From: Puniceicoccales bacterium Verruco_02
GTDB taxonomy: Bacteria; Verrucomicrobiota; Verrucomicrobiia; Opitutales; Oceanipulchritudinaceae
Direction of reading: 5' to 3'
Assembly: GCA_001604585.1 (NCBI GenBank)
Contig: LVBW01000014.1
Span: 271 to 64,270, forward strand
Length of the DNA stretch: 64,000 nt
The number at the start of each line of letters is the position of its first letter. Position 1 is the stretch's first letter. Positions 9,999 to 52,646 of the stretch are shown here, piece by piece. The translations under genes were made by a program, and so were the position numbers. Below the pieces are notes generated by a model. It searched no databases. It had not been told where the DNA came from and was given only the letters and a program-made list of their open reading frames with translations.

Positions 9999-10925
9999 CT
10001 ACCAACCATACACTCCAGCCGCTATCAGGCTCATCGCATCAAGCGTTCGCGAGCCGGGTATGTTCAGGAAGTTCGCCGGTACTAGCAATATGCGGTCATT
10101 CTTCACCGCTTCCACCCTGCCCCACACTTTGTCATCCTTGAGCCGGGCCACACGCTGGCGAAATGCCCCATGCTCTGCCTCCTCCAATGGAAGGGGCAGT
10201 ATGATGAAGTCGGGCCTCTCTGTCAGAAGCGCTTCCATTGACAGCCGAGGCCAAGGCGAGGCCGCACGGTTGGCTATGTTGTCCAGCCCAAGGTCGCTCA
10301 ACATGTCATCCACCCAGCTTCCCCGGCCCGCGCTGCCAAGATACTCCGTGTCGTAGAGCAGGGCCACTTTCAAGCCCTTGCGCGCCAGTTCCACCTTTGC
10401 AAGCAGCTCTTCGCGCCGCCGCGACATATCCTGCAACACTGCATCCCCCTCTGCGCTGCGGCCCAGCACGCGACACATTGTTCCCATGTCGGCCATGACA
10501 TCGGAAAGGCCCTGATGCTTGAACATCATGCAGCGAATACCGGCCCCTTCGAGAGTGTCGTAAACGTGTCGAGGCGTCATCTCCGTACCCATCACAAGGT
10601 CGGGACCAAGACTTATTATGCGCTCTATGTTGGGCGACATCATGTCTCCAATGCGCTCCACGGCGGCCACCTCGGGACGGTCGCACCATTTTGTGACTCC
10701 GCGTAGCATGTCCACCTCGCCCAAGGCTACGAGCATGTCCGACACGCTGGGCGCAAGTGAGACCAAGGTCTTCGGTACCTTGTCTAGGCGCACCGTACGC
10801 CCACAGTCGTCCTCAGCCTCGTAATACGCCGCCGCCCCGCGAATGGGAGCCCCACCCTCTCCGCACGAACACAGCAGAACGGCGTAAAGGGAAACGAGAA
10901 CGGCAGACAGGAAAGGGATTCGCAT
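9999..10925 (-). CDS. BtuF-like periplasmic binding lipoprotein
   Basis: The 308-residue solute-binding protein is of the BtuF/FecB/FhuD class III type (helical backbone). It starts with a lipoprotein signal peptide, and the lipobox LLCSC gives acylated Cys at about residue 20. The family motif TLVSLAPSVSDMLVALGEVD lies near residue 50, followed by ERIISLGPDLVMGTEMT. ATG 10925 is chosen because the signal peptide begins there. Class III binding proteins deliver cobalamin, ferric siderophores or haem to an ABC importer. No permease or ATPase gene is adjacent. It is divergent from a DUF4465/TonB-receptor pair across a palindromic promoter region, so it probably shares their substrate. Confidence 0.85.
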   Translation of the reverse strand: MRIPFLSAVLVSLYAVLLCSCGEGGAPIRGAAAYYEAEDDCGRTVRLDKVPKTLVSLAPSVSDMLVALGEVDMLRGVTKWCDRPEVAAVERIGDMMSPNIERIISLGPDLVMGTEMTPRHVYDTLEGAGIRCMMFKHQGLSDVMADMGTMCRVLGRSAEGDAVLQDMSRRREELLAKVELARKGLKVALLYDTEYLGSAGRGSWVDDMLSDLGLDNIANRAASPWPRLSMEALLTERPDFIILPLPLEEAEHGAFRQRVARLKDDKVWGRVEAVKNDRILLVPANFLNIPGSRTLDAMSLIAAGVYGW

Positions 10926-10942
10926 GACTTGGGAATGCAGTT

Positions 10943-10995
10943 TTGACAGTTTTATGCCATTATGGCATTGACGGCATACTGGTGCCAATTACATT
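10943..10995. promoter_or_regulatory. divergent promoters around palindrome ATGCCAT-T-ATGGCAT
   Basis: The palindrome at 10954..10968 has two perfect 7-base arms around one central base. Toward the binding-protein gene, TTGGCA (complement of 10983..10988) and CATAAT (complement of 10959..10964) are 18 bases apart. Toward the DUF4465 gene, TTGACG (10968..10973) and TACATT (10990..10995) are 16 bases apart. The palindrome therefore covers the -10 of one promoter and abuts the -35 of the other, as expected of an operator controlling both. The plus transcript would begin very close to its ATG. Confidence 0.55.
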
Positions 10996-11005
10996 CCAAG
11001 CCCTG

Positions 11006-11782
11006 ATGAAAGCAAAACTCTTTTTCGCAACTCTCTTCGCCGCTCCCCTAATAGCCGGGGCGGTAACGATCAACTTCGAGGATCTGGCCCTGGCCGCCGA
11101 CAGTTCCTACAACGGCTCGGACAACGCGGGCGGCTTTGTCAGCGGAAGCGTCAGCTTCTCCAACAACTTCACCGACTGGGGAGGGGGCTACTCTTCTTGG
11201 GACGGCTTCGGCTATTCCAACAAGGGCTACGCAAAGCCTGCCACTGCTGGCGACTACACATACGAATTCAACACCGTAGCCAGCGACAACAGCACCTACG
11301 CGGTGGTCTATGGAAGCGCCTTCAGCTCTGCACCCACGATCACGCTAAACAGCGAAACGAGCACACCGCTCTCGATCGACATCGTGAACACGACGGTAAC
11401 CTGGTCCTCTCTGAGCTACGGCGACGGCTTTGCCAAACAGTTCGAGGCCGGGGACTGGTTCAAGCTGACAATCAGCGCCTTCGACGCAGTGGGCGACTTC
11501 ATCGCCAGCATCGAAACCTTCCTTGCAGACTTTACCGACGGCAAGAGCTACATAATGGACGAGTGGACGACGGTTGACCTCAGCAGCCTCGGCATGAACG
11601 TGGCAAGTCTTGAGTTCAGCTTTTCGTCCACAGACAACGGCATGTTCGGCATCAACACGCCAACATACGTTGCAATCGACAACCTTGTGGCCGTGCCCGA
11701 GCCTTCCACATACGCCGCCATTACCGGTCTGGCCGTCCTGGGTCTGGCATGGCAGCGCCGTCGCAAGGCAACTCAGGCATAG
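11006..11782 (+). CDS. DUF4465-type PEP-CTERM surface protein
   Basis: The 258-residue secreted protein has a signal peptide (ending near IAGA) and a body of DUF4465 character, rich in Asn, Ser, Tyr and Trp (NFTDWGGGYSSWDGFGYSN). The C-terminal PEP-CTERM signal comprises VPEPSTYA, a hydrophobic helix and RRRK. DUF4465 proteins commonly sit beside TonB-dependent receptors, and some relatives in Bacteroidota B12 loci are thought to bind corrinoids; that link is from memory and is not shown here. ATG 11006 starts the signal peptide. The stop lies seven bases before the TonB-receptor start, so the two form an operon. Sorting would need an exosortase encoded elsewhere. Confidence 0.82.
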   Translation: MKAKLFFATLFAAPLIAGAVTINFEDLALAADSSYNGSDNAGGFVSGSVSFSNNFTDWGGGYSSWDGFGYSNKGYAKPATAGDYTYEFNTVASDNSTYAVVYGSAFSSAPTITLNSETSTPLSIDIVNTTVTWSSLSYGDGFAKQFEAGDWFKLTISAFDAVGDFIASIETFLADFTDGKSYIMDEWTTVDLSSLGMNVASLEFSFSSTDNGMFGINTPTYVAIDNLVAVPEPSTYAAITGLAVLGLAWQRRRKATQA

Positions 11783-11789
11783 CTTACCC

Positions 11790-13838
11790 ATGAATTTTGT
11801 TATCGGGATGCCTTCCGCAAGGCAGGCCGGTGCTTCTGCGCTGGCCTGCCTGCTTGTTTGCACATATGCGACAGCCAATGAGGCACAAACAGCCTTGGAC
11901 GATGTGCTGGAATTGCCACCGCTCAGCGTCAGCGCAAGGCGCTTCGAGGCCGACAGCGCCCGCATCGCCGCCGCCATAACGCAGGTCGATGCATCCACAA
12001 TCAGCGCCAAGGCCGCAACAAACATAGCGGACCTCCTTGGCGAACTGGGCGTAACCTTGCGCTCCTACACAGGCAACCCCGCGCAGAGCACGATCGACAT
12101 GCGCGGGCACGGCGAGAGCGGCAACCTCAACACCCTCGTACTGATAGACGGGCGCCGAATCAACGCCCCGGACATGAGCGGCATCAACTGGCTGAACATG
12201 CCCCTTGTGAGCGTTGAGCGCATCGAAGTACTGCGCGGCAGCCAAAGCGCCATGTACGGCAACAACGCCGGCGGCGGCGTCATAGACGTGCGAACCTCCA
12301 TTCCGCAAGGAAGCGGTGCTGCGTCCATAATAAGCTACGGCAGTTGGGACACATGGACAGCACGCGCGGCGGCATGGACGGAGCTGACAGAGAAAGTGCG
12401 CTCAAGCACCGAGCTTGGCTTCATGGAAAGCGACGGCTGGCGCGACAACTCTTCCTACAAGACGCGCCGCATAAGCCAGAGCTTCCAAGGCAGTGCGGGA
12501 AAGCTGGATTGGCGGGCGAGCGCAGGCTACGACGACAACTGGTTCCTCTTCCCCGGCCCGCTGGACACTACTAGCTACTTGGAGAACCCACGCCAGAGCG
12601 GCTACTACCCGATGGGGGCAGACTATTATGCCCAAAGTGAGAACTACTACGCGAGCGGCGCGGCGGACTGGAAGGGGGATGCCCTGCAACTGCACGCAGA
12701 CCTCAACTGGAACCACGTCTTCAACCCCTGGAACATGGGCGCAGGGCTTGGCGCAGAACGCAGGCTCGACACTTGGAAGTTCGCCCCAAGGGCAAGGCTC
12801 GCGCTTGGCGATGCCACATCGCTGATACTAGGCGCAGATGGCGAACACGACTCGCTAAGCCTTGGCCTATTCAACGACATAGCGCACACAGATCGCCGCT
12901 CTCACTCCACGCTTCGCCGCACAACGGGGGGCCTTTACAGCAACCTATCCTGGAGCGGTCTTAGAGAAAAGAGCCTGACTGCCGACCTAAGCGCCCGCGC
13001 ACAGGCGCACAAACTCTACGACAGCTTTTCTGACGACACAGGCGAAAAGCCCGATGAAAAGAAGAACAAAAGCGGCAACGACACCGCTCTGAGCCTTGGC
13101 ACAAGCTGGCAGGCCACGGAGAATATCCGCCTCTGGGCAAGGGGCGACCGCTTCTTCCGCTACCCGGCCATTGACGAAATCGTGGCCTATCAGGGCTACG
13201 ACCTTAAGGTGCCCTTCAACAGCGAACTGGGTTCCGAATACGGCTGGGGAGGCGAGGCCGGACTGGACCTCACAATCCCGCACGCCATGTTCCGCATCAA
13301 CGGCTTTGCGCAGGAGGTGAAGAATCTCATCGTGTTCGACTACGTCAGTAACCTCAATGTCAACCTTGCCGCGGCCCGCAGGCTGGGTATGGAAGCAAGT
13401 GCACAGTTCGCCTACGGACAATTCAAAGGTGGCCTCTTCTACACACTCCTGCATGTGAAGCTTACGGACGGCAGCTACGATTTCGCACTGGATGCTCAGC
13501 ACATCAGCGGCAACTACTCGGGCAAGGAGCTGTATCTGGTACCGCGTCATCAGATATCCGGCCATGTGGAATGGACTCCGGGCCGCTTCTCGCTGCGTCT
13601 ATCAGGCCGCTACACGGGAGAGCAGTGGCAGGGCAACGACTTTGAGAACAAGCAGGACAAGATGCCCTGCTACTTTGTAATGGACGCCATTGCCCGGCTA
13701 AGAGTCAGCGAAAAGCTGACGCTCTTTGTGGCATCGGAAAACCTGCTCGATCGCCAGTACTCGGCCCTGCGCTACAGCGGCGTTTGGTACCCGGCAGCGC
13801 CAAGAAGCTACCGCTGCGGCCTGCAACTGAGCTACTAG
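11790..13838 (+). CDS. TonB-dependent outer membrane receptor, BtuB-like
   Basis: This 682-residue outer-membrane receptor begins with a signal peptide ending near ATANEAQT, followed by a TonB-box-like LELPPLSVSARR. The plug domain (about 50..160) contains TIDMRGHGESGNLNTLVLID and VERIEVLRGSQSAMYGNNAG. A long beta-barrel full of alternating aromatic strands ends in an aromatic residue (LQLSY), as is typical of outer-membrane proteins. The barrel size and plug resemble BtuB-type cobalamin receptors, but siderophore or haem uptake is possible. ATG 11790 is used because the longer in-frame extension overlaps the upstream coding region. It is co-transcribed with the DUF4465 gene. Confidence 0.88.
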   Translation: MNFVIGMPSARQAGASALACLLVCTYATANEAQTALDDVLELPPLSVSARRFEADSARIAAAITQVDASTISAKAATNIADLLGELGVTLRSYTGNPAQSTIDMRGHGESGNLNTLVLIDGRRINAPDMSGINWLNMPLVSVERIEVLRGSQSAMYGNNAGGGVIDVRTSIPQGSGAASIISYGSWDTWTARAAAWTELTEKVRSSTELGFMESDGWRDNSSYKTRRISQSFQGSAGKLDWRASAGYDDNWFLFPGPLDTTSYLENPRQSGYYPMGADYYAQSENYYASGAADWKGDALQLHADLNWNHVFNPWNMGAGLGAERRLDTWKFAPRARLALGDATSLILGADGEHDSLSLGLFNDIAHTDRRSHSTLRRTTGGLYSNLSWSGLREKSLTADLSARAQAHKLYDSFSDDTGEKPDEKKNKSGNDTALSLGTSWQATENIRLWARGDRFFRYPAIDEIVAYQGYDLKVPFNSELGSEYGWGGEAGLDLTIPHAMFRINGFAQEVKNLIVFDYVSNLNVNLAAARRLGMEASAQFAYGQFKGGLFYTLLHVKLTDGSYDFALDAQHISGNYSGKELYLVPRHQISGHVEWTPGRFSLRLSGRYTGEQWQGNDFENKQDKMPCYFVMDAIARLRVSEKLTLFVASENLLDRQYSALRYSGVWYPAAPRSYRCGLQLSY

Positions 13839-14723: not shown

Positions 14724-15053
14724 GCAAAAGGCATGAATACAAACAAAACTGATTCCAAGTGCAAAACCTGATTATCCAGACATGCACTTAGGCTATGAAT
14801 ACAGGGATAATACACATCAAAAATGGTCATCCCATCGTATGCCACAGACGCGAAAGCGTGAACCACAATTCGTGCCATACGCGGTGGAGCACATTTACAA
14901 GCAAGCCCAAGCGTAATTCCCACATATACAAACGCCTTAATAGCATATAATTGCAATGCGGTAACGCCGTTATGCTTGTTCTTGATGCACTCTGCGCTTA
15001 AACTGTCATTTGCACATCCGTGCATGTTCTTGAACCCTCAATACAGCAGATCA
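14724..15053. other. intergenic stretch without recognised gene
   Basis: About 330 bases of more AT-rich sequence lie between the pseudogene fragment and the Vps62-like gene. No tRNA, terminator or convincing coding sequence was seen. It should hold the promoter of the Vps62-like gene, but no box pair with good spacing was found. Confidence 0.4.
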
Positions 15054-15665
15054 ATGAAGACAGAAATGACAGACATGCTTGCACACATCAACATGTCGAA
15101 CATGGGCCTGAAGGCCATTCTCAGCTCCGAATTCGAACTCATTTGGAACGACCGTGGCAGCGGCGCATCAAAAGACGGCGCGTTCTGGAAACCCAAGTCA
15201 ACATTCGACACACTCCCGATCGGCGCTCTGGCAATGAGCGGCTACGGCGACCCGGACAACAAGTTTGCCGCCCTGTGTATCGGCCCCGACGGGCACGACT
15301 CCAAGGCGCTGGCACATCCCATGAAGTTCGATCTGATATGGGCCGACCACGGCTCGGGCGCGGACAAGGACGGCTCCTGCTGGAGGCCAATTCCTCCCAG
15401 CGGCTACGTATCCATGGGCGACATGTTCATGAACGGATATGACTGTCCCAACCTAGACAGCGTATGGTGCGTCAGGCAAGACCTTGTGGAACCCACCAGC
15501 ATCGGCGAACTCATCTGGAACGACAAAGGCTCCGGCGCTGACAAGGACTTCGCGGCTTGGGAGATAGACGGCTTCCATGGCGACAGCAGATTCTCCTGCC
15601 CCTTCATCGGCAACAACGCCCACGAAAGGCCATCCGTCATTGTGTTCAAGCTTAAGAACATCTAA
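15054..15665 (+). CDS. Vps62-like (DUF946-type) repeat protein
   Basis: This 203-residue protein is built of three similar units, each with a core like LIWNDRGSGASKDGAFW (first), LIWADHGSGADKDGSCW (second) and LIWNDKGSGADKDFAAW (third). The pattern W-x-D-x-GSGA-x-KD-x3-W and the intervening PIGALAMSGYGDPD match the Vps62 family, best known from fungi and plants and patchily present in bacteria. No signal peptide is evident, so it is probably cytoplasmic. An alternative ATG lies at 15066. Function is unknown. It lies in the rearranged accessory region and ends at its own terminator, which fits acquisition by transfer, although composition is not obviously foreign. Confidence 0.75.
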   Translation: MKTEMTDMLAHINMSNMGLKAILSSEFELIWNDRGSGASKDGAFWKPKSTFDTLPIGALAMSGYGDPDNKFAALCIGPDGHDSKALAHPMKFDLIWADHGSGADKDGSCWRPIPPSGYVSMGDMFMNGYDCPNLDSVWCVRQDLVEPTSIGELIWNDKGSGADKDFAAWEIDGFHGDSRFSCPFIGNNAHERPSVIVFKLKNI

Positions 15666-25816: not shown

Positions 25817-27091
25817 ATGTTCACACATCCCAGACTCCCCCTATATATCGTTCCCTGCCTGCTACTCGCGCAGCCCTGCCTTGCCATATCGCTTGAAATC
25901 AACGGTGGCTCTACTGCCGAAGTCAAAGGAAACACAGACCTTGGGTCCAGCTCTTCGGACTTCATCAACGTAGGCTCCGCCAGCAACGCCAACACACTGA
26001 ACATATACGCCAGCCTGTCTGCCTACAAAACAACTGTGGGCGGCAACCAGACAAGCTTCCCCAGCCTACCCGATGTCACGCCCTACAACTACAACAGCGT
26101 CGAGATATTCGACGGTGGCTCGCTCAACCTGAGCGCGTACATGTATGTGGGCTACGCTGGAAGCGGCAACACCATAACAGTCAACAGCGGGGCAAGCCTC
26201 AATATCGGGACCTTCCTCCAGCTCAGCTACACAACGTCAGTATCCGGCTCAGATTCTGCATACGCCAGTAACTCTGTGTATGTGAACGGCGGCACCATGA
26301 GCGTGGGCACCTACGCATACGTTGGCAGCTCCTCAAGCAACAACCTCATCAGCGTCAGCGACGGCGGCAGCGCCACAATGGCGACGCTGCGAGTGGGCGA
26401 CAATTACAGCGAGTCCGGCAACGGCGTCATAGTAAGCGGCTCGGGCTCTACGCTAAGCGTATCCAGCTCTGGCAGCTACAACGGCGACCTGATCGTGGGC
26501 CGCAGGGGCAACGACAACTTCCTCACCGTGCAGGAAGGCGCCGCTGTGGACTGCGACAGCCTCGCTCTAGGGGCACTTTCGACAAGCAGCTACTCATCCA
26601 ACGGCAATCAGGTGCTCGTCACCGGGGGCAGCCAGCTCGAAATCCGTGGCAACCTGGCCATTGGCGCCATCAACAGTGGTTATGCCACCGAAGGCAACCG
26701 CGTGCTAGTGCAGGACGGGGCGCTTGTTGTTGTTGGAGGAAACCTCACGATTCAGGACGCTGGTGAAGGCGACGCAAATTACCTCTTCATCGAAGGCGGC
26801 TTCCTCGCATGGGCCGGCGACCACACGGCCACAGGCGACGACGCACTTGCGGCCCTCTTCGACGGACGAATAATGATTGGCGACGGCTCCGGCGGCATGG
26901 TGGCAGCCACGGCAGACACTCTTTCCTACTTCTACTGCGCATCCGACGCGGAAGGACTGGCCGCAACAGGCTTCGCAGGACTAAGCGGCTATACAATCCT
27001 AGGCGCAGCTGTGCCGGAACCCTCCACATACGCCCTGATGGGCGGCATCGCAGCATTGGGCATGGCACTGTACCGCAGACGCCGGGCGTAG
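25817..27091 (+). CDS. beta-helix-like PEP-CTERM surface protein
   Basis: The 424-residue protein has a signal peptide ending near CLAISLEI, a body of irregular repeats and a PEP-CTERM tail (VPEPSTYA, hydrophobic helix, RRRR). The repeats have a recurring pattern of about 30..50 residues such as N-x-I-x-V-SGGS-x-L-x-V-x-x-x-L-x-VG (NGVIVSGSGSTLSVSSSG, NGNQVLVTGGSQLEI, EGNRVLVQDGALVVVGG). This pattern is typical of autotransporter-like right-handed beta-helices seen in verrucomicrobial PEP-CTERM proteins. Likely surface-anchored or part of the extracellular matrix. No catalytic motif was seen. Confidence 0.8.
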   Translation: MFTHPRLPLYIVPCLLLAQPCLAISLEINGGSTAEVKGNTDLGSSSSDFINVGSASNANTLNIYASLSAYKTTVGGNQTSFPSLPDVTPYNYNSVEIFDGGSLNLSAYMYVGYAGSGNTITVNSGASLNIGTFLQLSYTTSVSGSDSAYASNSVYVNGGTMSVGTYAYVGSSSSNNLISVSDGGSATMATLRVGDNYSESGNGVIVSGSGSTLSVSSSGSYNGDLIVGRRGNDNFLTVQEGAAVDCDSLALGALSTSSYSSNGNQVLVTGGSQLEIRGNLAIGAINSGYATEGNRVLVQDGALVVVGGNLTIQDAGEGDANYLFIEGGFLAWAGDHTATGDDALAALFDGRIMIGDGSGGMVAATADTLSYFYCASDAEGLAATGFAGLSGYTILGAAVPEPSTYALMGGIAALGMALYRRRRA

Positions 27092-41017: not shown

Positions 41018-41596
41018 ATGAAGATCCGCTCCCTATTCTCCTGCCTTGTCGCATTCGCCCTTGCCGGGACATCCACTCTGAACGCCGGACCGGCAGGGGC
41101 CGTCCTCACTGTCAACACTCTGGACAAGACCATAAGTTTTTCCGGTGCCACTGCCGCGACCCTCTCATATGTTTCCGATAACGATATCAGCGTGGCGGTG
41201 TGGAGAGCAGGGGCCAATTTCGGCACCTTGACCGGTGAGTATGAGATGCTGGAGGCAAACATCATTGCCGACACATCCGTCGCCTCTGCCATAAGCAATT
41301 CCTTCTCGATGTACGAGGACGGCGAACGGGTGCTGTTCAAGGTCACATTCTCCGGAGAACTGGCGAGTGCGAGTATATACAGCACTGGTGAGACCTACAG
41401 TTACAGCTCATGGGATGCGGCCGACATCGCCATATTCGAGTCGGTGATGGGAAACTACTCCTCCCTTTCGGCTGTCGGGTCATATCCTGACATAAGTATC
41501 TCCTTCGTCGGCGTGCCCGAACCCTCCACTTACGCGGCATTCTGTGGCATGGGCGTTCTCGGTCTTGCCATCTATCGCCGTCGCAAGAGCGCATAG
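41018..41596 (+). CDS. small PEP-CTERM secreted protein
   Basis: The 192-residue protein has a signal peptide ending near TSTLNAGPA, a ~130-residue beta-rich body without recognised domain and a PEP-CTERM tail (VPEPSTYA, hydrophobic helix, YRRRKS). The body is Ser/Tyr/Ala-rich with few charged residues. Likely surface or matrix protein; function unknown. It is a single gene between the LOG-family gene and infA. Confidence 0.75.
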   Translation: MKIRSLFSCLVAFALAGTSTLNAGPAGAVLTVNTLDKTISFSGATAATLSYVSDNDISVAVWRAGANFGTLTGEYEMLEANIIADTSVASAISNSFSMYEDGERVLFKVTFSGELASASIYSTGETYSYSSWDAADIAIFESVMGNYSSLSAVGSYPDISISFVGVPEPSTYAAFCGMGVLGLAIYRRRKSA

Positions 41597-49600: not shown

Positions 49601-49877
49601 GGCCGCCCAAGGTGGGCAGAAGGGCGTCGGGGCGCTCCTTGTCGATGATGCGGTCGAGCACGTCCACGGTCAGCGGCTCGATGTAGGTGACATCGGCAAA
49701 GTCCGGGTCGGTCATGATCGTGGCCGGATTGCTGTTCACCAGCACCACGCGGTAACCTTCCTCGCGCAGGGCCTTGCAGGCCTGTGTGCCGGAGTAGTCG
49801 AACTCGCAGGCTTGGCCGATGACGATCGGGCCGGAGCCAATGATTAGGATGCTCTTGATGTCGCTGCGCTTGGGCAT
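46626..49877 (-). CDS. carB: carbamoyl-phosphate synthase large subunit
   Basis: The 1083-residue subunit makes carbamoyl phosphate for arginine and pyrimidine synthesis. It shows two ATP-grasp halves: [20 protein letters not shown] opens the first and [20 protein letters not shown] the second. [20 protein letters not shown] and [20 protein letters not shown] are the paired metal and adenine-site motifs. A C-terminal MGS-like allosteric domain starts around [23 protein letters not shown] 49877 matches the family start. The small subunit gene carA is not within the window. Confidence 0.97.
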
Positions 49878-50202
49878 GGTTAAAATGTCGTGGGTGCTAT
49901 CGGGCGGGCGCTGACAAAGGCCCAAAATTCCCGACAGTAAACGAATCCCCCGCCCTCATCGCAAGAGAATTCAGGACTGCCGGCCAAGACAGGAGCCAAC
50001 AGCATATCGGGCATCTTGGCAAACAGTGGCCAACAATATGCCCTCGCATGGGCTGCCATACGGCTGCTCTGTTCTTGTACATGCTGAGGGCGGCCGTACT
50101 GGGCCGGCCGCCCTCTTTGTTAGCCACACAGGGACTGGTATCTCCCAAAACCACCCCGCGCAGCACAAATAACTCAAACCCAACTTATTAACATGAAAAG
50201 TG
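49878..50202. other. intergenic region between carB and the Cys/Met-rich protein gene
   Basis: About 325 bases. It contains the terminator-like stem at 50086..50115 and no coding sequence I can support. It probably holds the carB promoter on the minus strand. Confidence 0.4.
50086..50121. terminator. terminator-like stem GAGGGCGGCC/GGCCGCCCTC
   Basis: GAGGGCGGCC (50086..50095) pairs with GGCCGCCCTC (50106..50115) around a 10-base loop, followed by TTTGTT on the plus strand. On the minus strand it lies about 90 bases beyond the stop of the Cys/Met-rich protein gene and probably ends that transcript. Confidence 0.65.
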
Positions 50203-51270
50203 CTACTTGGCCTTCTTGTCGCTCTTTTGCTCGGGTTTCTGCTCGGGCTTCTGTTCCTTGCCGCCCTTGTCGTGCATGTCTTTCATGATTTTCTCGATGG
50301 CTGCCTCGCGCTCGGCACGGTCGTCTATCTTCATCGCCTCGCGTATCTGGCTTACAAAGTCGCGCCGGTCTCGCACGGGCATGTTGCGCATGTCGTCCAT
50401 CGCCTGCCTCATCCGTGCAAGGTCGGGATTCATGTGCGGAGGCGGCATCCCCTCGCCAAGGCAGGACAGACGCTCGCGCAAAGTGTCGCGCAGCTGGTCA
50501 CCATGACGGGCCAGCACCTCGCGGCGCACCTTTTCGAGGGACTCGGCATCAATGCTGCCCTTAATCTTATTCAGCTCTTGGGCAATCTCAGCGTTGATAC
50601 TGTCCCTGAGATCGTCTTTTCCGAAAACCGGCCCCGGACCGAAACCCGCAGCATTCTCGCCTTCATCATTCTGGCCAAACCTCATGCGAAAGGGACCGAT
50701 CGGGAAACCCAGATCCGGCCCCTGTCGTAGCGCGGCCAAGTCTTCCTTGAGTCGCTCGCCGTCGGCCTTGAGCTTCTCGATGTCGGCCTTGAGGTTCTTT
50801 TCAAATGCCTCGCGGGCCTTTTCGATACTCTTGTCGCCACGCTCCGCGACGGCCTGTATCCATGCCTTGCGTATCTTCATGGCGTCCATGTGGATCTGCT
50901 GCACCCTCTGGTCGAAGGGTTCGGGCAGCCTTGCGCCCATTTCGCCGCAGCCGCCGTCCATATCAGGACCGCAACCCTTGCCTGGGCCACCACGCATGTC
51001 GCAATTCATGCCCTGCCCCTGCCCCTGCCTAGGCCCGCAATCCATGCCCTCGTGCTGAGGGCCGCAGTTCATTCCTCCCTGCCGGGGGCCACCTGCCTTC
51101 ATTGCCTTGCCCATCATCGGGCAGCATCCGGCCGCGCCCTGCCCATCCATGTTTGGGGGCGGAGGAGGCATACCGCAGTCGCCCTGTGGTACCTGTTGCG
51201 CGCTGGCAGCGTTGGAAAAAGCCACAAGAGCGAGAACGGCCACTGCAGCCATATATCTGTTAAGTTTCAT
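50203..51270 (-). CDS. secreted Cys/Met/Gly-rich protein with helical C-terminal region
   Basis: The 355-residue protein has a signal peptide ending near SNAASAQQ. A short Gly/Met/Cys-rich segment (about 30..112) has eight Cys in units such as GGMNCGPQHEGMDCGP and GQGMNCDMRGGPGKGCGP. A long charged helical part (about 115..330) includes KARE and KLKADGERLKEDLAALR heptads, and the tail is Lys/Gln-rich. I do not recognise a family. The Met/Cys-rich part resembles soft-metal (copper) binding segments, and the helical part loosely recalls Spy/CpxP-like periplasmic chaperones. It is placed in the periplasm or outside the cell by its signal peptide. Confidence 0.65.
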   Translation of the reverse strand: MKLNRYMAAVAVLALVAFSNAASAQQVPQGDCGMPPPPPNMDGQGAAGCCPMMGKAMKAGGPRQGGMNCGPQHEGMDCGPRQGQGQGMNCDMRGGPGKGCGPDMDGGCGEMGARLPEPFDQRVQQIHMDAMKIRKAWIQAVAERGDKSIEKAREAFEKNLKADIEKLKADGERLKEDLAALRQGPDLGFPIGPFRMRFGQNDEGENAAGFGPGPVFGKDDLRDSINAEIAQELNKIKGSIDAESLEKVRREVLARHGDQLRDTLRERLSCLGEGMPPPHMNPDLARMRQAMDDMRNMPVRDRRDFVSQIREAMKIDDRAEREAAIEKIMKDMHDKGGKEQKPEQKPEQKSDKKAK

Positions 51271-51575
51271 CGTAATGCCAAGTTATTCAGTTGTTATCTC
51301 ACCCAGTATGCCAACTGACATGCAAGCAGCGCGCCAAACCTGGCTTAGCGAATGACTATTTCGTAAATCATTGACTTAGCTAGATATACAAAATGTCCCT
51401 GTCGCTCAGGCATGAGCCTCGCATGGCATTAGGGAAATATTCCCCGGCAATGTATGGGTTGATATTCCCCGTAGCGGGGAATATTCACCACCTCCAGCGG
51501 ACAGTATGCGCCAAACTACGCAGCATTCATAGGCGCAAGGAGCATGAAGGCATGAGCTGCATTCAAGGGCGCAGC
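51271..51575. repeat. intergenic region with repeats of ATATTCCCCG
   Basis: About 305 bases without a gene. The 10-mer ATATTCCCCG occurs at 51437..51446 and 51462..51471 and inverted at 51475..51484. The last two form a perfect stem with a TAG loop. The stem lies about 90 bases after the inositol-phosphatase-like gene on the minus strand and may end its transcript. The promoter of the Cys/Met-rich protein gene should lie in the left part. Confidence 0.5.
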
Positions 51576-52646
51576 CTAATGGTCCCTTCTCACCATGCCC
51601 CTTGGGGCAAGCAGCTTTATCTCCCTTACAAGCTCGGCCAGAACAGGACGCACGGTATTTGCCAGTTCCTCGTTGGCGTAAGCCACCCAGCACACGGGCG
51701 ATACGGTATCCATAGGTGCGCTTACCGGGCCGTTCAGCGGGTGCTCCACGATGCAGCCCGCCTCGCGGGCGAGCATCTCCACGCATATGTCGTAGGGATG
51801 ACAGACCAGAGTGGCCTCCAGCCCAAGGGCGCGAAGTGCGTATGGGCGCAAATCCCCCACCATGCGGTCGTGCCCGCACATAATTTCATAGAGCTGACCA
51901 CCGGTGCTTATGTACTGGTCGTCAAAAATCACCGGCGAGGCCGACTCGCCAAGACCCACTATTCGCTCCCATAGAGACTCTTCGAGCTGGGCCGTCATCA
52001 CGCGCCCCTCCGGGAAGAACTTTGAAAAGGAGGCGAAACTGTGCCGAAAATCTCTGGCCCTAGATGGTTGGAGGCGCACGGGGCGCACAGGACGGGCAGG
52101 GTCGCGCATATCGCAACTCTCGGCAACGATGCCCCTGCCCTTCACGGCGCTAATCTGATCGCTGCGCCACTGACGGCTGGTCGGCAACTCCGTCATCGCA
52201 GAGACAAGGATATGCTCCACACGGGCCACGCTTGCAGGGCCGGGCGCAACTGCACTGAGGCTCCACGCGGCCCTCTTGTCGTACATCAGTCCCCTTGTTC
52301 CGTCAACGGGGTCGATGATGAGCGTCATTATGGCCGGACCTTTGGCTGAAGAGGGCAAAGTAATCGTACCGTGCTCCTCCATTCCCTCCATCACAAGGTC
52401 CACAGGCCAGCGGGAGGGCCAGTTGGCCTCCAACCAGTCAATTATGAGCTGTTCCACGCATTTATCTATGGCGTAGATCGTGTCGGCAGGCGTCTGGGCG
52501 GCAACTGCGGCCAGATCCTCGTTCTGCCTGCCGTTGCGTTCGTTAACCAATGAATCGCGCAAGGCGCTCTGAAGGCGGCATAAAAGAATGCGCAGCTTCT
52601 CAGAGTCCACGTAATCAGGCAAAGTGCTATGCTGAGGCAGGGGCAT
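51576..52646 (-). CDS. inositol monophosphatase-family protein
   Basis: The 356-residue protein is of the inositol monophosphatase/FBPase/CysQ superfamily. The metal-binding motif IIDPVDGTRGLMYDKRAAWS lies near residue 112, and the expected Glu upstream is in VMEGMEEHGTI. The C-terminal half, with GDLRPYALRALGLEATLVCH, has an analogue of the usual G-x-x-WDxAAG motif only in degenerate form (YDICVEMLAREAGCIVEHPL). It probably dephosphorylates a small phosphate ester; the substrate is unknown. ATG 52646 is preferred to one 16 codons upstream because the family core starts soon after. Confidence 0.8.
   Translation of the reverse strand: MPLPQHSTLPDYVDSEKLRILLCRLQSALRDSLVNERNGRQNEDLAAVAAQTPADTIYAIDKCVEQLIIDWLEANWPSRWPVDLVMEGMEEHGTITLPSSAKGPAIMTLIIDPVDGTRGLMYDKRAAWSLSAVAPGPASVARVEHILVSAMTELPTSRQWRSDQISAVKGRGIVAESCDMRDPARPVRPVRLQPSRARDFRHSFASFSKFFPEGRVMTAQLEESLWERIVGLGESASPVIFDDQYISTGGQLYEIMCGHDRMVGDLRPYALRALGLEATLVCHPYDICVEMLAREAGCIVEHPLNGPVSAPMDTVSPVCWVAYANEELANTVRPVLAELVREIKLLAPRGMVRRDH

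Follow-up and report, generated by a model that had tools for sequence, protein, structure and literature searches.

A probably exported orphan protein of one verrucomicrobial genus, in which the helical domain is conserved and the cysteine count of the front segment is not

In the 64,000-nucleotide stretch of Puniceicoccales bacterium Verruco_02 DNA analyzed here (hereafter, the window), the open reading frame at 50203-51270 (minus strand; ATG start; 355 aa) is a real gene whose helical part is under purifying selection. Its product is an orphan confined to the genus: the genomes searched contain no convincing relative elsewhere. What can be said most securely is that the helical domain of this protein is conserved, whereas the number of its cysteines is not. 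Orthologues are present in both other genomes of the genus (i.e., in all three examined), with 47% and 31% identity to this protein, and the stretches AV(A/S)xRGxKSIE and AMKI(D/E)D are common to all three. Compared with the orthologue in genome G002, the helical region (212 codons) has a dS of 1.98 and a dN of 0.41; in the helical part of the other two pairs, the values are 1.09 and 0.70, and 1.18 and 0.67, respectively. dS is greater than dN across the helical part in all three pairs, with dS values near saturation. We reject the reading of this frame as an artefact based on the orthologues, the codon pattern, and a GC3 (0.718) in line with 37 other window genes (0.735; sd 0.051).

Of the layout proposed by the sequence-only reading, a signal-peptide-like start (by eye) and a Cys/Met segment that leads into a charged helical region are supported. 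The gene begins with a presumed signal peptide (residues 1-24; 51199-51270, minus strand), judged by eye from initial K/R residues, a hydrophobic core, and ASA ahead of QQ; both orthologues have, likewise by eye, a comparable N-terminal start. The protein is thus probably exported and would reside in the periplasm. Next comes a low-complexity segment of Gly, Met, Pro, Gln, and Cys (residues 25-113; 50932-51198, minus strand), delimited by composition and AlphaFold pLDDT. The conserved, charged helical domain (residues 114-337; 50260-50931, minus strand) is defined by AlphaFold, conservation, and the codon test, and a Lys/Glu/Pro/Gln-rich C-terminal end of low AlphaFold pLDDT (residues 338-355; 50206-50259, minus strand) completes the protein. 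Together, the 242 residues of the helical domain and short tail are 40% charged.

All eight cysteines claimed for the Met/Gly segment are present (residues 32, 49, 50, 69, 78, 90, 100, and 108), as are the quoted units GGMNCGP, GMDCGP, and GQGMNCDM; a ninth, C270, lies outside it in the helical part. The 89 residues of the segment comprise 25 G, 12 P, 11 M, 9 Q, 8 C, and 1 H. Against a background of 37 hand-picked window genes (15,955 aa; 1.4% C and 3.0% M), the binomial chance of at least 8 C in 90 residues is 4e-5 and that of at least 11 M is 7e-5, figures that are flattering because the segment was picked after the fact. The best 90-aa window of this protein contains 19 C and M residues, vs a maximum of 14 among the other 37 genes. 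The description of this region as repeats holds for its composition but hardly for its DNA: of the three short tandem arrays in 50100-51400, only a 19-base CCCTGC run (51011-51029) falls inside the segment, and there are no direct repeats of 12 or more bases in 50900-51220.

The segment is low-complexity and variable. It has 89 residues with 8 C and 11 M here, 71 residues with 3 C and 11 M in one orthologue, and 32 residues with 3 C and 3 M in the other. Because length and cysteine number vary across the three proteins, the eight-cysteine set is a property of this species' protein and not of the family, which is known from three members. Homologues without the Cys/Met part had been named beforehand as evidence against the proposed buffer; the part occurs in every homologue, but it is shorter and has fewer cysteines in the other two.

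The sequence-only reading had called for a profile search for relatives, and convincing ones were found in this genus alone among the genomes searched. A protein search matched three of 89 genomes, all from the genus. Of 17 genomes of the family, the whole-protein profile matched five, including two weak matches. With a profile of the helical part, matches were recovered in seven of 372 genomes of the order (the three of the genus and four weak ones) and in two of 387 genomes of the phylum (its own and one weak match, to a protein that is OmpH-like by eye). A contig scan, whose outcome hinges on a pair of short peptide patterns, located two loci that are apparently the known orthologues (Zod_Metabat.372 and Verruco_01). 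None of the weak matches beyond the genus is counted as a relative: the phylum match (G405; E 0.0015) is OmpH/Skp-like by eye; that of G014 (E 0.0024 and 8e-4) adjoins an ABC-transporter ATPase, also by eye; that of G008 (E 0.0068) aligns to profile positions 38-87, which fall largely in the low-complexity part; and those of G526, G546, and G572 have weak E values only (0.002-0.007). A second match within G002 (E 0.11) is likewise not counted, and the best other match in the protein's own genome has an E value of 0.22. Plasmids, phages, and viral contigs were also searched, with no relative among them.

The claim that the protein belongs to no known family stands: no significant match emerged from Pfam (lowest E 0.051 across the three orthologues), NCBIfam (0.036), or PHROGs (0.047), and PADLOC gave no match. 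Sequence searches of the PDB were likewise without a significant match, the best E value being 0.062 for the profile and 0.11 for the protein. Among the literature matches listed, the titles and abstract openings contain no description of this protein, which is no proof of absence.

AlphaFold, given three sequences for the whole protein, predicts helices and a front that lacks structure (pTM 0.27); pLDDT is below 50 over residues 1-114 and about 30-35 in the front. Folded alone, the helical part has a mean pLDDT of 70 and a pTM of 0.32. These models are weak because just three sequences exist. The predicted helices form a hairpin at approximately residues 117-183, which is modelled with more confidence (block pLDDT 77-91 with the domain by itself), a pair at approximately 218-270, and three C-terminal helices at approximately 282-337. 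A Foldseek search of the PDB found no fold match, with best E values of 1.0 and 2.1 among the matches listed; the highest probability listed (0.84; E 2.4) belongs to a match over 67 columns with a helical part of the ABC transporter PCAT1. VIA-align gave Z scores up to 8.4 across unrelated helical hairpins and itself notes that such similarity is possibly just a common arrangement. Spy/CpxP-type proteins do not appear among the fold matches listed for these weak query models.

The gene lies between carB (277-base gap to the frame as listed) and an inositol-monophosphatase-like gene (305-base gap), beyond which are a DRTGG gene and phosphotransacetylase (pta). There is no metal gene among these four scanned neighbours, and none of eight window neighbours tested recurs near the orthologues, in surrounding stretches of 15 and 18 kb. 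The neighbourhood is neither metal-related nor conserved. Both orthologue loci share a divergent gene that is AMP-ligase-like by eye and 73% identical between them. A search of 49800-51700 identified no sigma-70-type promoter, and the RNA elements over gathering score in the window are an rRNA and two tRNAs, none of them near the gene, with no riboswitch in the window at that score. Approximately 90 bases past the stop codon is a strong GC-rich hairpin (50086-50115; 11 pairs, 10 of them G-C) with a T-containing tail on the plus strand, opposite to this gene and carB.

Elsewhere in the window, a short protein with LIWND/ADHGSGADKD-type repeated units (14976-15665, plus strand) matches Vps62 (PF06101; E 8e-17), which is known mainly from eukaryotes. 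Three plus-strand proteins (10943-11782, 25817-27091, and 41018-41596) have, by eye, a PEP-CTERM-like C-terminal sorting signal that consists of VPEPSTYA, a hydrophobic stretch, and RRR. A periplasmic binding protein (PF01497) is also encoded near a TonB-dependent receptor on the opposite strand (9999-13838).

We propose that the product of 50203-51270 is a lineage-specific, exported helical holdase or scaffold with a fast-changing flexible tail that perhaps binds soft metals or thiol-reactive compounds, a composite reading that we put forward tentatively and at less than even confidence. The conserved domain of approximately 220 residues would most likely act in the envelope as a holdase or scaffold, with amphipathic helical hairpins offered to client proteins or partners. 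The front segment, rich in Gly, Met, Pro, and Gln, would be a flexible and rapidly changing linker in which this species has gathered eight cysteines. DsbA, the one thiol oxidant covered by the search, was detected in none of the three genus genomes (G000, G001, and G002) and in eight of 14 controls; the thiols may therefore stay reduced in the periplasm. Reduced cysteines may, in turn, lend some capacity for soft-metal binding or thiol scavenging.

The protein could instead be a periplasmic sponge for copper, silver, or other soft metals, in which a disordered Cys/Met stretch wraps ions as SilE does, with the helical domain as carrier. The density of Cys and Met (8 and 11 in the 89-residue segment), above the window background, and the disorder predicted by AlphaFold are consistent with such a sponge, and SilE is the nearest idea for the segment: according to PMC5008109, SilE is disordered without metal and binds Ag+ through His/Met motifs. 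The likeness lies in a segment that is predicted to be disordered and offers many potential soft-metal ligands, Met among them, but that paper gives ten His for each of SilE and PcoE, whereas the three segments here have one, two, and one (this protein's first), short of the ten conserved His with Met motifs described there. The present protein also differs by its separate helical domain and by the lack of a metal gene among its four scanned neighbours. Other hallmarks of SilE and PcoE are folding upon metal binding and a gene located with a silver/copper efflux system. Gram-negative genomes are expected to encode at least some of Cu P-type ATPase, HMA domain, heme-copper oxidase, and DsbA. 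The copper search covered the first three, and each was detected in zero of three genus genomes, compared with 14 of 14 controls for Cu P-type ATPase, 13 of 14 for the HMA domain, and eight of 14 for heme-copper oxidase subunit I. The genomes are 94-97% complete, such that a single absence could be a gap; the same absence in all three is unlikely to be one. These results speak against a role in buffering copper for known copper enzymes or exporters. Copper buffering in general is weakly supported because the eight cysteines are not conserved (8, 3, and 3), the copper genes were not detected, and the neighbourhood is neither metal-related nor kept. Of the soft-metal binding suggested by the sequence-only reading, the copper part is thus disfavored, while the thiols may stay reduced and may bind other soft metals or compounds that react with thiols; the sponge as a whole we consider unlikely.

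Somewhat easier to accept, if still on the doubtful side, is that the front segment is a neutral low-complexity linker, for which being rich in Met, Gly, Pro, and Gln is enough, with extra cysteines acquired by drift, and that the helical domain is structural in the envelope. Such a linker would fit the great differences in length and cysteine number within one genus and an apparent dN that is higher in the segment (0.76 vs 0.41 in the helical region for the G002 pair, with an uncertain segment alignment). Pulling the other way, Cys and Met are present in all three segments, and in this species their density is above the window background. The helical domain itself might instead descend, with far divergence, from the periplasmic helical chaperones of the Spy/CpxP/ZraP group (LTXXQ and Metal_resist). 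Members of that group are exported, helical, and charged, with Met residues, a general plan that this protein resembles. Metal_resist matched seven of nine family genomes outside the genus (five over the cut-off) and LTXXQ two of nine, while both were zero of three in the genus, a distribution that would fit replacement. Nevertheless, PF07813 and PF13801 are unmatched at E values up to 10 in the three orthologues (HMMER filters drop most matches above approximately 0.1), and an hhalign comparison with six of the nine Metal_resist matches (probability 0.2%; E 0.29; 28 columns) indicates no homology. The helical domain here has approximately 220 residues vs family models of 100 and 125 positions, and it is preceded by a Cys-containing front segment. 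Spy forms a cradle-shaped dimer whose cradle contains Met (PMC12503329). With no family match and a negative profile comparison, we do not file the protein with Spy-like proteins; distant descent from it is, to us, very improbable. Helical hairpins are also a feature of Skp/OmpH proteins. The phylum match is weak and of a kind often given by helical sequences; the OmpH model is absent from Pfam matches at E values up to 10 in the three orthologues; and Skp has a beta body, whereas the model predicted here has no strands.

Returning to the holdase or scaffold that we favor, a bolder version would define a new periplasmic holdase family in bacteria devoid of both DsbA and the usual copper-handling genes, with the disordered Met/Cys tail serving to buffer soft metals or supply reduced thiols and so coupling thiol or metal stress to client binding; we regard this as improbable, if a little less so than descent from the Spy group. 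In summary, if the tail is functional, it would give bacteria that do without the usual oxidative-folding and copper machinery a reservoir of thiols or metal in the periplasm. If it is not, the gene would be a case in which the most striking feature of a lineage-specific exported protein, its cysteine motifs, is also the part conserved least.
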